Below are positions 18,250 to 24,060 of a stretch of 64,000 nucleotides of DNA, one piece after another. Source of the DNA: Flexistipes sinusarabici DSM 4947 (GTDB taxonomy: Bacteria; Chrysiogenota; Deferribacteres; Deferribacterales; Flexistipitaceae); assembly GCF_000218625.1 (NCBI RefSeq), contig NC_015672.1, positions 2,021,451 to 2,085,450 on the forward strand, read 5' to 3'. The position numbers and the translations under genes are program-made. The first letter of the stretch is position 1, and every line of letters begins with the position of its first letter. The notes under the pieces are model-generated. The model had not been told where the DNA came from. It did not search any database and was given only the letters and a program-made list of their open reading frames with translations.

Positions 18250-19585
18250 GAGACTTTTGAATCATCCTAATATTTTTAAATTTCATTAATTTTGCAGCTA
18301 AATTTGTTAACTACCACTTTTTTAAACAACATTATCAGCAAAAACAAAGGTATTTGTTTGTTTAAATTGCCTCAAATTGTCCAAAATAGGTAATTTTGGA
18401 CACACCTGTATGGTTAAATCTTGTCAAATCATTCTTAAAGCACCCTTTCTCAGATTATATGCCATACAATGTATAGACAATTCCAGCCTAACCTTATCAA
18501 TACCTATAAATCGGCTACGAGTATAACCAAAATGAAGCTTAATCAATCCAATTGCCTGCTCAACGACATAACGAACCTTGCTTACTGCCTTGTTATGAAA
18601 TTTCTGAAATCCTGTAAGTGGCTTATTCCGCGCTGCCTTATACATTATCATATCTGCATAGGTTCCTGATATGTCTTTGCGGTTAGATTCACTGCTGTAG
18701 CCTTTATCTGCATATATTGCCGTTCCCTTAGGCAAATTAAGCTTTTGTAATAAAGGTGCCAAATTCCGCACCTCACTCTCTCTGGCACTCTTTACCATTT
18801 CTCCCAATATATAACCGTCCGAATTTACACAGAAAAATTGTTTGTAGCCATAATACGCTCTATTACCCTTCTTTAACCAACTCGCATCAGTGTCCTTCGA
18901 ATAACTTATGTTGCTTTCATTATTCCCTCCGGAACCACCACAGGAACTATCATTGTCATCATCTCCTTCATGCCGATCTTCTGCAATATCATTTACTACT
19001 TTACGGGGACGGCACGAGGACTCTACCAATGTCGCATCTATTATCGCTTCCTTCCTGCTTTTCACTATTAAATTTGATTCCGATAACTGCCTGTTTATCT
19101 CTGAAAATAATTCGTCAAATATCTCCAATTCAAGTAATCTGCTCCGAAACCTGCTGATGGTACTGTGATCCGGAACTTCTCCGGATACACTTACTCCTAC
19201 AAATCTTATTACTGACAACCGATCCTTTAAGGCAAATTCAGCCTGAGGGTCACTCAGCTTTTCCCACGACTGTACTAAAAGTATTTTAAACAAAAGTAAC
19301 GGGGAATAAGCTCTGCTGCCAGATGTGTTCTTAGTCCATCTGTATTTCTTATCAAGGATTGATTTTACTTTCTTCCAGTCTATAAGTGAATTTATCTTAT
19401 CAAGATAAGTCGAATCATTAGCTTTAAAGTCTAACATTGAATCTAATACTGTGGATTCTATGTACTTTTCCATAACAACTCCTTTTGTCTTTAATAAATA
19501 ATACATATTATCACATAATATCATAATAGTAAAGATAAAATATATTAACTTCAAATGTTTTCATTTTTTCTTGTGCAAAGGTTTC
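18250..19585 (-). mobile_element. IS5-family element, copy 2, inserted in istB
   Basis: 1336 bp, ends GAGACTTTTG and GAAACCTTTG, flanked by AAATA at 18245-18249 and 19586-19590. It is nearly identical to copy 1, with one noticed base difference giving a Pro-to-Ser change near the transposase start. Confidence 0.95.
18424..19473 (-). CDS. IS5-family transposase, copy 2
   Basis: Same protein as the copy at 12614-13663, with Ser for Pro at residue 6 from the preferred ATG (EKYIESTVLD). All catalytic motifs are intact. Near identity between the copies implies recent transposition or gene conversion. Confidence 0.93.
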   Translation of the reverse strand: MEKYIESTVLDSMLDFKANDSTYLDKINSLIDWKKVKSILDKKYRWTKNTSGSRAYSPLLLFKILLVQSWEKLSDPQAEFALKDRLSVIRFVGVSVSGEVPDHSTISRFRSRLLELEIFDELFSEINRQLSESNLIVKSRKEAIIDATLVESSCRPRKVVNDIAEDRHEGDDDNDSSCGGSGGNNESNISYSKDTDASWLKKGNRAYYGYKQFFCVNSDGYILGEMVKSARESEVRNLAPLLQKLNLPKGTAIYADKGYSSESNRKDISGTYADMIMYKAARNKPLTGFQKFHNKAVSKVRYVVEQAIGLIKLHFGYTRSRFIGIDKVRLELSIHCMAYNLRKGALRMI

Positions 19586-19694
19586 AAATATGATATGTCT
19601 TCTTTAGAAGCCGCTTCCGAATGATTGTGGAGAATCTCGGGGATTTGAGTAAGCCCCAGCTGATGGAAGGCTTCATTGAGTCGTTCGTGAATAA

Positions 19695-20939
19695 TCATTG
19701 GTTTACCTCCAAAGCGAATTGCTCATATACTGAAAGGTCTCTTTGAGTCACTTCGGGGGCTGAATGTTCATCCAGGCGTGGTAAAGGTTGGCTGACCTTG
19801 TTTTTGCCTGAACTGAAAATGCCCCTGAAGTGCTCTTTTTCCCTTTTTACCTGATATTTTACAGTTGCTTTTTTATGCTCTGCAATTTTTTCATTCCCGC
19901 TGTATATACAGATTAACCCTTTTTTGTCATCCTGTACGTGAACTATGCTGCCCACATATTGAAAAGGTACTGAGTACATACTTGCACAATAAGATACTAA
20001 ACAGTCGTTAGTCACTTTTCTTGGATAATAATCCACCAGCTCAAATGGTATTTGGTTGAAAGGTCTCAGTTTTTCTTTTTCTGTGTACCACCGCTCTATA
20101 GGTCTTTCTTTGGTTGTATTATGTATGCGAGCGTTAGCATGTGTATTTACCCAATCCAAAGCTTTAGCATTTAAATCGTCAAGATCATTGAATGTCCGAA
20201 CTCTTTGCCAAAAGTTTTTCTTTACATAACCGATCCCATTTTCTACCTTGCCTTTTGTTCTGGGGCGATAAAACCTACAGCGTTTTAGTGTAAATCCGTG
20301 GTGTTCGGCGAAACGGGCAAAACGCTTATTCCAAATAACTCCGCCTTTCTCATCCACATCGCTGACTACTGTCTTCATGTTATCATACAGACAAGTTTCC
20401 ACCACTCCCTCGAAAAAATTAAACGCCCTTGTATGACAGCCTATCAACGTATCAAGTTTTTCATCTTCCATAAATTCCACATAAATCATACGGCTGTAGG
20501 AAAGAAGCATTACAAATATATGCAACTTCTTACTGGTGCCATTCCAGTTTACTGTCACTTCTCCCCAGTCCACCTGAGCCTGCCTGCCAGCGGGTGTTTC
20601 AAAGCGAACTGTAGCTTTCTCACGAAGTTGGGGGCGGAGTGGCTGCATAAAATCCCTAAGAATCGTCATCTTACCTGTGTAGCCCATATCTCTTATTTCA
20701 TCGTAAAGCACTACACTGTTAAAACAGCCTTCTTCCTCCATTCGGTGGATTATGTAATCTTTGAACGGATCAAGCTTGCCCGCTTTGATTACTTGTCGGC
20801 TATAACCTTCCGGAACTCCTTCTCTTAGCCATTTGCGGACTGTCTTACGGTCTCTGTTTAAATGTTCAGAGATAGCCGTAATTGTCATTCCTTTCTCTTT
20901 CATTTCTTTGATCATAAAATACTCTCCGTTTTTTACCAT
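19695..20939 (-). CDS. istA: IS21-family transposase IstA (type B), intact copy
   Basis: A 414-residue DDE transposase with an N-terminal helix-turn-helix (MTITAISEHLNRDRKTVRKWL) and an rve core: Asp in QVDWGEVTVNW, Asp in LYDNMKTVV, Glu in KGKVENGIGYVKKNF. AAGGGAGAG lies just upstream of the ATG. It overlaps istB by 4 bases. A second copy (27992-31150) is broken, so this is the only functional IstA of this type in the window. Confidence 0.95.
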   Translation of the reverse strand: MVKNGEYFMIKEMKEKGMTITAISEHLNRDRKTVRKWLREGVPEGYSRQVIKAGKLDPFKDYIIHRMEEEGCFNSVVLYDEIRDMGYTGKMTILRDFMQPLRPQLREKATVRFETPAGRQAQVDWGEVTVNWNGTSKKLHIFVMLLSYSRMIYVEFMEDEKLDTLIGCHTRAFNFFEGVVETCLYDNMKTVVSDVDEKGGVIWNKRFARFAEHHGFTLKRCRFYRPRTKGKVENGIGYVKKNFWQRVRTFNDLDDLNAKALDWVNTHANARIHNTTKERPIERWYTEKEKLRPFNQIPFELVDYYPRKVTNDCLVSYCASMYSVPFQYVGSIVHVQDDKKGLICIYSGNEKIAEHKKATVKYQVKREKEHFRGIFSSGKNKVSQPLPRLDEHSAPEVTQRDLSVYEQFALEVNQ

Positions 20940-21031
20940 TTTCTCTCCCTTATATTTTTGAGGAAGAGATTTTCAGTTTAGTGGGGAATTTTCAACCGTT
21001 TATTTTGGGGAGTTTAGCACCGTTTATGACA

Positions 21032-21179
21032 GTCTCATTGATATTGAATCAAATTTTTCCAGGTTTCCGTCATTTTTAAGAAAATCCTCACCAGAATCTA
21101 TGCCAGAAAATCTTTTTTCAATCAGATCGATGCTTTTCAATATAAAGTCAATCGTAAAGTTTATGTCGATTTTACCCAT
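21032..21179 (-). pseudogene. HepT-like HEPN toxin, truncated by IS21
   Basis: About 49 codons remain, starting MGKIDINFTIDFILKSIDLI and continuing IEKRFSG, GEDFLKND and DSISMRL before the IS21 end. This matches the start of HEPN/HepT proteins, in which ISMRL precedes the lost RNase region (RX4-6H). The ATG lies inside the mntA stop region (overlap), the usual hepT-mntA arrangement. The toxin catalytic part is gone. Confidence 0.75.
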
Positions 21180-21483
21180 ACATGACTTCTTTTTCGATAT
21201 TCTCTTTTAATGGTTTATTTAAGTCTTTATGGTCATACACCAAATCAACTTTGTGATCTAAAATTTTTTCTATATAAACCCATGCTCCAGCAACATTCCT
21301 GAAGTTGGTATTGCTGAATTTTACATAAATATCAATGTCACTGCCCGTATCATAAGTATCATTTACATAGCTGCCGAACAGACCAATTTTTATTACGCTG
21401 AATTTGTTACGCAATACGTCTTTATGTCGGTTTAAACATTCCAAGATATGTCCTTTTGTGAGTTCTGTTTGATTTGCAGGCAT
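21172..21483 (-). CDS. MntA-like minimal nucleotidyltransferase antitoxin
   Basis: A protein of about 103 residues with the minimal nucleotidyltransferase motif GLFGSYVNDTYDTGSDIDIYV (GS-x10-DxD) and a downstream acidic position (KVDLVYD). MntA proteins AMPylate the partner HepT RNase to neutralise it. The start at 21483 has GGAG about 10 bases upstream; an alternative ATG at 21498 has no ribosome site. With hepT truncated next to it, the antitoxin is orphaned. Confidence 0.85.
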   Translation of the reverse strand: MPANQTELTKGHILECLNRHKDVLRNKFSVIKIGLFGSYVNDTYDTGSDIDIYVKFSNTNFRNVAGAWVYIEKILDHKVDLVYDHKDLNKPLKENIEKEVMYG

Positions 21484-21591
21484 TTTTAAATGCTCCATTT
21501 TTACGATTTATAAGATTATTATAGTAATTTCTTAAATATTTTGCAATGAGTTCCAGTGAGATGGACTAATGTGGATGATTTGAGTACCCTC

Positions 21592-21614
21592 CCTCACACT
21601 TCGTAAGTGTGAGG
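21592..21614. repeat. Hairpin 1 of the RAYT locus
   Basis: CCTCACACTT-CGT-AAGTGTGAGG, a perfect 10-bp stem with a three-base loop. Shares the ACACTT/AAGTGT core with hairpins at 21697 and 22398 around the RAYT gene. Confidence 0.85.
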
Positions 21615-21696
21615 ATAATATTTGACAAATATACAAAGTTTTCATAATATAACTAATTGTTACTAAATATATTTTATATCTATTGGCTAAGATCAC

Positions 21697-21727
21697 CCAA
21701 TCTCACACTTGCGAAGTGTGAGATTGG
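21697..21727. repeat. Hairpin 2 of the RAYT locus
   Basis: CCAATCTCACACTT-GCG-AAGTGTGAGATTGG, a perfect 14-bp stem with a three-base loop. It ends a few bases before the ribosome site of the RAYT gene, so it may also affect its translation. Confidence 0.88.
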
Positions 21728-21741
21728 TGCTGGAGCATTTT

Positions 21742-22389
21742 ATGAGAAAACAGCCGCTTGTTACAGATCATGTTTATCATGTGTTCACAAAAAGCATAGC
21801 CGGATACGAAATATTCAGGGGCGTTGCTGATTTTCACAGAATGATAGAAATGATGAAGTTTTATGGTTATGAAAAGAGACCTGCCAGATTTTCTGAATAC
21901 GTACGTATTAAAAACAAAGATGAGTATCTCAAAAAGTATATTCACTCTGAAGATACTATAGTGGATTTAGTCGCTTACTGTCTCATGCCCACTCATATTC
22001 ATTTTCTGCTTGTTCAAAAGAAAGATAAAGGGATATCTGCTTATATGAAAAATATCCTGGACAGCTATACCAGATATTTTAATAACAAAAATTATAGAAA
22101 GGGACCTTTATGGCAGGGGAGATTTAAAAGTGTACATGTGGAAACGGATGAACAGTTACTGCATTTAACAAGATATATCCATCTTAATCCGACTTCTTCA
22201 AAATTAGTCCCAACTCCTGAAGACTGGCCGTATTCTTCATATAGAGAATACTTGCATGAATCAGAGCGTAATGTATGCAATTTTGCCGATTATATTGATA
22301 TTAATCCTGAACAATACAGGGATTTTGTAACTTCCAGAAAAAATTACCAAGCAAAACTTAATGAAATAAAACACCTGCTCCTCGAATAA
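21742..22389 (+). CDS. REP-associated tyrosine transposase (RAYT, Y1_Tnp)
   Basis: A 215-residue HUH single-strand transposase of the IS200-like/RAYT family. The metal-binding HUH motif is in CLMPTHIHFLLVQ; the candidate catalytic Tyr is in DSYTRYFNNK; the C-terminal block RKGPLWQGRFKS...RYIHLNP is typical of RAYTs. ATG at 21742 follows TGGAG. It stands alone without IS-type ends but is bracketed by three hairpins with a common core, as in REPtrons, where the RAYT recognises the palindromes. Confidence 0.9.
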   Translation: MRKQPLVTDHVYHVFTKSIAGYEIFRGVADFHRMIEMMKFYGYEKRPARFSEYVRIKNKDEYLKKYIHSEDTIVDLVAYCLMPTHIHFLLVQKKDKGISAYMKNILDSYTRYFNNKNYRKGPLWQGRFKSVHVETDEQLLHLTRYIHLNPTSSKLVPTPEDWPYSSYREYLHESERNVCNFADYIDINPEQYRDFVTSRKNYQAKLNEIKHLLLE

Positions 22390-22397
22390 TCTACACA

Positions 22398-22414
22398 TAC
22401 ACTTCGTAAGTGTA
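22398..22414. repeat. Hairpin 3 of the RAYT locus
   Basis: TACACTT-CGT-AAGTGTA, 7-bp stem and the same CGT loop as hairpin 1, placed 9 bases after the RAYT stop codon. Confidence 0.8.
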
Positions 22415-22441
22415 AGCAGGAAATATTAAGAATTTATGTTT

Positions 22442-24060
22442 CTTTAAGATTGCATTAGGAGTTGCAAGCCACCTTTAAGATGTTGTAGATTAAGGTTTTA
22501 AGAAAACAAAAACCACAACCAAAAAGGTGACTTACAATGAGCAAACTAAACTACAAATTAGAAAGAAGCAATGATAAAATTACCCCATTTGGTGGAATAT
22601 CTTTGTTAATCCCACTGTTAGATAAGATGGGCATCCGAGATTTCCTTGATAAAGAACTTGATCATCCAGGCTCTAACAGAGGCAAACCGCCATCTTCTAA
22701 AATAATTCCTGTTATTCTATCGATGATATGCGGTGGCAGGAGTTTCAGTGATATCGACAAACTTTCTTTTGATAAGGTTTTAAGCTATATCAGCGGTATT
22801 GAAGATATCCCGGATAGTTCCAGCATCAGTAGGTATTTTTCAAAAACAGAAAGCATGTTGGATGAAGTAGCAGTTAATAAAACAATCAGCAAACTGGGCA
22901 GTCTCAACTATAAAATAGTGAAAGATGCTTTAAAAAGAGAAAATTTATTTTCAGTTACTCTGGATCAGGACGCCACTTATGCAAAGGTGTATAAAAGGGA
23001 TGCCAAGTATTGTTATAAGAAATTTAAAGCATACAGTTCTATGACGTGTTTTATAGGAGAGAGCGGTTATTGTATAGACGAGGAATTTCGGGAAGGCAAT
23101 GTAAGTGCCCAGGTTGGCATACTTGAACAGCTTCAGAGAGTCCATAAATATCTTGAATCTTGTGGTATAGAAGTATCCAATGTTCGTAATGATTCTGCCG
23201 GTTACCAATCTAAAGTATTGAATTACTGTTTTGATAACGATTTAACGTTTTTTATAGGAGGTGACCTTGATAGTTCAGTTCGTAAAGGAATAAATCATAT
23301 ACCATCTGATTCATGGAAAAGATATAGAAATAGGTATGGAGATGAAAGCGATAATGAGGAAATAGCAGAGTTTATTCACTGTATGGAAAACACTAAGGAG
23401 AGTTTCCGTATAATAGTTGTTCGTAAGAAAATTGAGTCAGACAACCCCACAGTTCCGGAGCTTCTTGGTGATAAATATGAATATCGTGTTATTGCAACTA
23501 ATTCAAAACTGGATGCAGAAAAGGTGGTACATTTTTATAATTTGCGCGGTGTTTGTGAATACAATATAAAAGAAGCAAAGTATGGTTTTAATTTAAAAAG
23601 CTTTCCTTCGGGTAATCTTGCGGGTAACGGCTTATGGTTTAAGACAGGAATACTGGCATATAATCTGATTATGTACCTCAAACGAATCATAATGGGAGGT
23701 GTCTATAAAAATAAAGAGATGGGTAGTATACGTTATCAGGTCATATCTATAGCGGGGAAACTTGTGTCCCACGGCGGTAATAAACTGAAGTTGTGCTGCA
23801 GTGTGGATATGTTCAAAAAAATGGAACAGTGGAGGACAGAATGTTTAACGTTGTGACCTTTTTTCTTTACTTATGTTAACTTTGTGGACAATTCAGGCAA
23901 TAGGCAGTATTGCTGTGTCTAAAAACGGTGTAAATGGAGAAAATTTATGCTTTAGTAAAGTATGAATGAAGTAATATTTGGAAAATCTTTTCTTGTATTT
24001 TAAAAACAACAGGAAAAATATCAAAATCGGAGTTTGTTATTTTCTAATGCAAAATTAAAG
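22442..24060 (+). mobile_element. IS1380-family element, copy A (complete)
   Basis: A 1619-bp element with ends CTTTAAGATTGCATTAG and (complement) CTTTAATTTTGCATTAG, flanked by GTTT at 22438-22441 and 24061-24064. Encodes one intact transposase. An inverted copy B spans 32028-35569. Its right end lies 37 bases before the glycosyltransferase start at 24098. Confidence 0.95.
22537..23856 (+). CDS. IS1380-family transposase, copy A
   Basis: A 439-residue DDE transposase: Asp in VTLDQDATYAKVYK, Asp in VRNDSAGYQSK, Glu in GVCEYNIKEAKYGF. The N-terminal region ITPFGGISLLIPLLDKMG is characteristic of IS1380. AAAAAGGTGA lies just upstream of the ATG. The protein is the same as copy B at 34155-35474. 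Confidence 0.95.
   Translation: MSKLNYKLERSNDKITPFGGISLLIPLLDKMGIRDFLDKELDHPGSNRGKPPSSKIIPVILSMICGGRSFSDIDKLSFDKVLSYISGIEDIPDSSSISRYFSKTESMLDEVAVNKTISKLGSLNYKIVKDALKRENLFSVTLDQDATYAKVYKRDAKYCYKKFKAYSSMTCFIGESGYCIDEEFREGNVSAQVGILEQLQRVHKYLESCGIEVSNVRNDSAGYQSKVLNYCFDNDLTFFIGGDLDSSVRKGINHIPSDSWKRYRNRYGDESDNEEIAEFIHCMENTKESFRIIVVRKKIESDNPTVPELLGDKYEYRVIATNSKLDAEKVVHFYNLRGVCEYNIKEAKYGFNLKSFPSGNLAGNGLWFKTGILAYNLIMYLKRIIMGGVYKNKEMGSIRYQVISIAGKLVSHGGNKLKLCCSVDMFKKMEQWRTECLTL

Follow-up and report, generated by a model that had tools for sequence, protein, structure and literature searches.

A gene of the Red Sea bacterium Flexistipes sinusarabici coding for a RAYT-type HUH/Y1 single-strand endonuclease very probably possesses its own family of extragenic palindromes. 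The locus is a REPtron-like system and represents a broad clade with its own palindrome type, and the enzyme is domesticated-looking. The anatomy of the locus, the genome-wide and lineage-specific recurrence of its palindromes, their extragenic position, the match between the palindromes flanking one gene and the clade specificity of this layout are demonstrated below. On a wider scale, and with about even probability, a large unclassified RAYT clade (THuH, Y[ILV]HLNP, ~215 aa, a dozen or so phyla) may recognise a new palindrome super-family by means of the CGN triloop and the CAC arm and not of a GT[AG]G guide; the palindromes at start and stop would be a conserved cassette, with a possible further effect on the expression of the enzyme itself.

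Palindromes flanking the RAYT gene

All positions refer to the window, i.e. the whole stretch of 64,000 nucleotides that was analysed (2021451-2085450 on C1, the single contig of the Flexistipes genome, G000). The sequence-only reading had described three hairpins with an ACACTT/AAGTGT core and CGT, GCG and CGT loops, two before and one after an intact HUH/Y1 transposase gene, the second with a 14-bp perfect stem just before the ribosome site. Each of these elements is present as described:

21592..21614, no strand assigned: palindrome HP1, CCTCACACTT-CGT-AAGTGTGAGG, 10-bp stem
21697..21727, no strand assigned: palindrome HP2, CCAATCTCACACTT-GCG-AAGTGTGAGATTGG, 14-bp perfect stem
21732..21735, plus strand: GGAG, ribosome-site-like, between HP2 and the ATG, as read from the sequence
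21742..22389, plus strand: RAYT/TnpA-REP-like HUH Y1 transposase, 215 aa, with PF01797, NF047646 and PDB 4er8 matches
22398..22414, no strand assigned: palindrome HP3, TACACTT-CGT-AAGTGTA, 7-bp stem

The three palindromes share the core ACACTT-NNN-AAGTGT with loops of 3 nt, and HP1 and HP2 form an inverted pair, as their loops, CGT versus GCG, indicate opposite orientations. HP2 is separated from the RAYT ATG by 14 nt, and HP3 from the stop by 8 nt. Single-strand folding yielded z-scores, relative to dinucleotide shuffles, of -5.6 for HP1, -5.1 for HP2 and -3.1 for HP3. The reading frame runs open from the ATG at 21742 through to the stop, the last base of which is 22389, and the choice of start is backed by orthologues. 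In another genome of the genus (G001), the RAYT protein is 93% identical and all three hairpins are found at the same places, the counterpart of HP3 being a 12-bp version in the same position.

The surroundings of the gene (18424-24060) are rich in insertion sequences of the IS5-type, IS21 and IS1380 kinds; the inverted ends of the IS1380 element lie near 22442 and 24060, and it is located ~28 bp after HP3. Upstream, 21031-21180 and 21172-21498 cover an MNT nucleotidyltransferase gene (MntA-like, candidate PDC-S09 in PADLOC), which is intact, and its HEPN partner gene, which the IS21 element has cut off; G001 has an intact copy (L025, 83-409). Of a sugar-nucleotide dehydrogenase gene, wecC-like, a short remnant (NVDDLST) is left at 21566-21592 and ends at HP1; in G001, two palindromes enclose a longer piece of this gene (C2:266395-266604, L086).

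The encoded enzyme

In the Pfam profile search the protein matched PF01797 (Y1_Tnp) with 38.9 bits (cut-off 23), and it matched NCBIfam NF047646 (REP_Tyr_transpos) with 68.2 bits, which is under the equivalog cut-off of 80. A PDB sequence search with the single protein returned 4er8, the E. coli TnpA-REP (REP-associated transposase), as its sole match. For the AlphaFold2 model (pLDDT 92.2, pTM 0.88), 4er8, a structure of the RAYT in complex with a REP hairpin, likewise ranked first in Foldseek (E 5.7e-08, probability 1.00), followed by the IS608 and ISDra2 transposases. Alignment to 4er8 located the HUH residues H85 and H87 and the catalytic-type tyrosine Tyr145 (YIHLNP), and these three residues and W124 are invariant across 34 relatives. 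With its HUH motif, its one Y...NP tyrosine, its fold and its low copy number, the protein has several of the characters by which RAYT/TnpA-REP proteins are recognised. The two other Y1 proteins of the Flexistipes genome are only 35-38% identical to it, and a tblastn search against plasmids gave distant matches only.

The palindromes close to both sides of the gene make it a compact unit, and together with the IS608 and ISDra2 folds this would suit an ordinary IS200/IS605-type insertion sequence that jumps as a unit, with the palindromes as its left and right ends and the dispersed ones as relics. We consider this improbable, as the gene is single in the genome and has no near-identical copies, the same-genus copy keeps its upstream neighbour, the MNT gene, with 96% DNA identity, two RAYTs of one genome are only 55-69% identical, the tyrosine motif is YIHLNP versus the Y---Q of IS200 (PMC6006769), and no tnpB-like ORF is present near the RAYT gene in the window.

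Recurrence of the palindrome in Flexistipes and its order

Absence of the hairpin core from the rest of the genome had been set beforehand as the result that would speak against the palindromes being a RAYT-associated family. This result was not obtained: the exact core, ACACTTNNNAAGTGT, has 10 occurrences in the 2,526,590-bp genome versus 0 of its reversed control, about 0.3 copies being expected by chance according to our own estimate from base composition alone. Seven of the 10 copies lie away from the RAYT gene, and all loops contain CG. When up to 3 mismatches over the 18 specified bases were allowed, 11 places were found in the genome and 2 in the control; a count limited to the window, with 2 mismatches, gave 5 versus 2.9 expected, which is not above chance. 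The anticipated intergenic distribution was borne out by every dispersed copy: all 32 distinct copies of the genus and all 31 of a relative, G005, lie outside any ORF of 100 aa or longer (63/63). The F. sinusarabici genome is 86% coding (PMC3236037).

Among 100 genomes searched, the three Flexistipes genomes contain 10, 14 and 8 ACACTT cores, the other genomes of the order at most 1 each, with arbitrary loops, and the highest other count was 4, versus 2 for the control, in an unrelated genome of 4.5 Mb. In one genus genome (G002), 8 palindromes were present and the RAYT gene was not found in an assembly that is 88% complete. G005 belongs to another family of the same order, and its RAYT is 53% identical to that of Flexistipes. 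The palindrome around it is TGACTT-CGC-AAGTCA (also written TGACTT-GCG-AAGTCA), and TGACTT-NNN-AAGTCA occurs in 31 copies in G005 and in 0 in the Flexistipes genus, and none of the other genomes searched has more than 1. In a third lineage, G012, the RAYT gene is preceded by AACTTCGGAAGTT palindromes. ACTT-CGN-AAGT is common to the palindromes of the three lineages.

Some of the G005 palindromes (contigs C12, C15 and C77; L100, L101 and L106) are organised in same-direction arrays, ~50-62 bp apart and with a conserved 3' tail, GATTTTCCGCATATTTACGCCATCACAGC, and in this they differ from inverted REPIN pairs. Two further palindromes (G000:C1:1006501 and 1008030, L099) lie near the gene of a second Y1 protein of 294 aa; over 1.8 kb at this place, identity to G001 reaches 99.5%, versus 95-97% at the other loci compared.

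Possible traces of mobility

The HP1-spacer-HP2 pair, window positions 21566-21738, is present once more in G001 (95%); in this extra copy close identity ends at the edge of HP2 and the last 11 bp are loosely similar. HP1-HP2 might be a REPIN-type doublet, in which two inverted palindromes move as a unit; what was observed is the opposite orientation of the two loops and the one extra pair in G001. Sequence breaks at palindrome edges were also seen between G000 (2420292) and G001 (C1:45891), at the first L009 palindrome and at HP3, and one palindrome site of G001 is also present in G000 with only its core decayed. No clean empty site was found among the compared G000 and G001 loci, the sequences beyond the edge breaks being different. 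These observations agree with strands being repeatedly broken or copied at palindromes, and the breaks at palindrome edges could also be ordinary rearrangements.

A cassette present in distant relatives

Relatives of the RAYT were picked by protein alone from named genomes (80 proteins, 45-65% identical) and, with those of the window, G001 and G005, they formed a set of 83 loci. The 80 relatives belong to Nitrospirota, WOR-3, Thermodesulfobacteriota, Campylobacterota (Desulfurellaceae, Hippea), Omnitrophota and Elusimicrobiota, as well as Planctomycetota (Scalindua), Auribacterota, Aminicenantes, Berkelbacteria and others. A hairpin is present within 120 bp before the start in 61/83 loci (7.0% in shuffles and 6.8% in random control windows), no start-proximal hairpin over the threshold being found in the other 22/83, and within 70 bp after the stop in 57/83 (2.5% in shuffles). 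The median upstream hairpin ends 26 bp before the start codon, and the median downstream one starts 9 bp after the stop. Such hairpins are rare around 15 out-of-clade Y1 genes, including E. coli rayT.

The two palindromes within a locus agree at 13.4 central bases, versus 9.6 in permuted pairs (maximum 10.2 of 500 permutations). The arms are of the CACCT (49), CACTT (19) and CACCC (14) types, the oriented loops of the clade are CGT, CGG or CGC, and the common design is CAC[CT]N-CGN-N[AG]GTG. The search for a conserved motif at the foot of the stem revealed a weak C enrichment only, 9-10 nt before the core. In 12 further genomes, the degenerate core CACYT-NNN-ARGTG was more frequent than its reversed control in 11 and not in the remaining one; the weaker excesses among the 11 were 4 vs 1, 19 vs 13 and 13 vs 6. 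At six loci (L148, L150, L160, L187, L193 and L201) the loops are of 5 nt, TACGC or GCGTA, with CACC/GGTG or AACC/GGTT arms, a variant of the CGN triloop design.

Co-variation of enzymes and palindromes

The 83 proteins make up one side of a tree branch with 99% SH-aLRT support. The arm types are clustered on the tree, with 14 changes versus a shuffled mean of 18.0, a number as low being reached in 1/200 shuffles. The Mantel correlation between proteins and palindromes over the whole clade is weak (r 0.16, as high in 11/2000 permutations) and comes mostly from protein pairs that are more than 60% identical. Two RAYTs of one genome often have different palindromes, as has also been described for known REPtrons (PMC6006769).

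One enzyme's family comprises a palindrome just before the start codon, another just after the stop and extra copies in dispersed intergenic places. What the enzyme most likely recognises is the CGN triloop and CAC[CT] arm of the palindrome folded as a single strand, and it would cut DNA at the palindrome foot and join it again. Palindromes, or pairs such as HP1-HP2, may occasionally be copied or moved, and palindrome and enzyme would evolve together. Binding, cleavage, copying, mobility and any self-regulation through the start-proximal hairpin are inferred.

Possible roles in expression

As a palindrome is found near the start throughout the clade, some role in expression is plausible, and feedback control by HP2, suggested by its place before the gene, is possible. 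A role in marking the cassette ends fits as well, since the stop-proximal palindrome is about equally conserved. Two more specific candidates were rejected: a terminator role, because no T-run follows HP1, HP2 or HP3 in the locus sequence, and a regulatory stem over the ribosome site, because the GGAG at 21732-21735 lies outside the HP2 stem and is left unpaired by it. The palindromes might also be double-stranded operators or RNA elements (terminators, 5'UTR hairpins) unrelated to the transposase, and HP2 would indeed be a stable hairpin in the transcript leader, in a conserved position. Such an origin is very improbable, given the missing T-runs, the palindrome sequence that shifts with the RAYT lineage and is not the same for two RAYTs within a genome, and the rarity of the layout around other Y1 genes.

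Comparison with known systems

The domestication of transposases has one of its models in RAYTs and REPs, which have been described mostly in Proteobacteria. Canonical REPs are defined by their GT[AG]G head, which RNAMotif searches required (PMC6006769). In the Flexistipes clade this head was found 0-2 nt from the stem foot at 1/202 feet near RAYTs (0.8% in shuffles) and at 0/122 feet of dispersed copies. The interpretation of the locus as REPtron-like therefore holds in that the core recurs, is extragenic and has matched counterparts in many phyla, and needs amendment in that the head is absent; because the palindromes lack it, the system is a REPtron-like variant rather than a standard REPtron. 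Like canonical REPs, the palindromes are extragenic and repeated in the genome. Classical REPs usually exceed 100 copies, and the counts here, 10 exact copies in Flexistipes and 31 in G005, stay below the >100 often seen in canonical REPs. The GTAG guide is thought to be central to recognition, and a matched system devoid of it is a natural test of the purpose of the guide. The clade also supplies many enzyme-palindrome pairs, some of them two per genome, which are suited to swap experiments, and its palindromes would be missed by searches requiring GT[AG]G.

The HUH motif reads THuH in 82/83 proteins, a figure to be taken with the caveat that the peptide pattern used in the search includes that T; NH or DH is given for all TnpAY1 subclasses in the published subclass table. 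The clade's tyrosine motif, Y[ILV]HLNP, is listed for subclass 2.1 (Bertels group 1; Quentin 2018), and the Y[IV]HLNP and W[EQ] of this subclass and of the TIRYTs match the clade, whereas subclass 2.1 is reported as REP-less with a C-terminal HTH, neither of which suits the clade. The Flexistipes locus might also be a TIRYT, a tyrosine transposase with long terminal inverted repeats and not REPs (Di Nocera 2013); TIRYTs are without GTAG repeats, and some TIRs are self-complementary and repeated (PMC3733652). We regard this as extremely improbable: the C-terminal HTH of subclass 2.1, which includes most TIRYTs, has no Pfam match in the RAYT protein, the clade stands apart from long Y1 proteins in the tree, and its CAC[CT]-CGN core is unlike GGGGWSAS, the motif found in TIRs.

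Transposase genes flanked by GTAG-less palindromes with copies elsewhere are likewise found in subclass 2.6 and class 3, which have atypical secondary structures. Subclass 2.6 is mainly from Bacteroidetes and has NH[LIV]H and YIH[QN]NP motifs, and class 3 has a CnGA foot and a Y----Q motif, all unlike the clade. CGTC-tagged REPs, compared by transposase link alone, carry a CGTC tag at one end and are unlinked to transposases. The REP surveys of 2010, 2013 and 2025 do not mention Flexistipes or Deferribacteres. The core words of the clade palindromes were not found in the REP/RAYT literature compared. The enzymes are a separate clade, and none of the subclasses published in that literature fits them in full.

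The Stenotrophomonas and Marinomonas REPtrons (subclass 2.5, group 3) share the perfect stem and the 3-nt loop, the S. maltophilia REP having an 8-bp stem and a 3-nt loop the bases of which matter (PMC8266576); they differ in their GT(A/G)G heads, their tens to hundreds of copies per genome, their phyla and their protein motifs. As to the E. coli system (rayT b0228, 4er8), its REPs have a GTAG foot and a stem bulge, whereas the palindromes of the Flexistipes clade lack both and have a fixed CGN triloop and a low copy number, and the E. coli enzyme is of 165 aa with EHMH, versus 215 aa with THuH here. The two systems have in common the HUH/Y1 fold, the YI..NP type of tyrosine motif, the low gene copy number and a gene flanked by its own extragenic palindromes.
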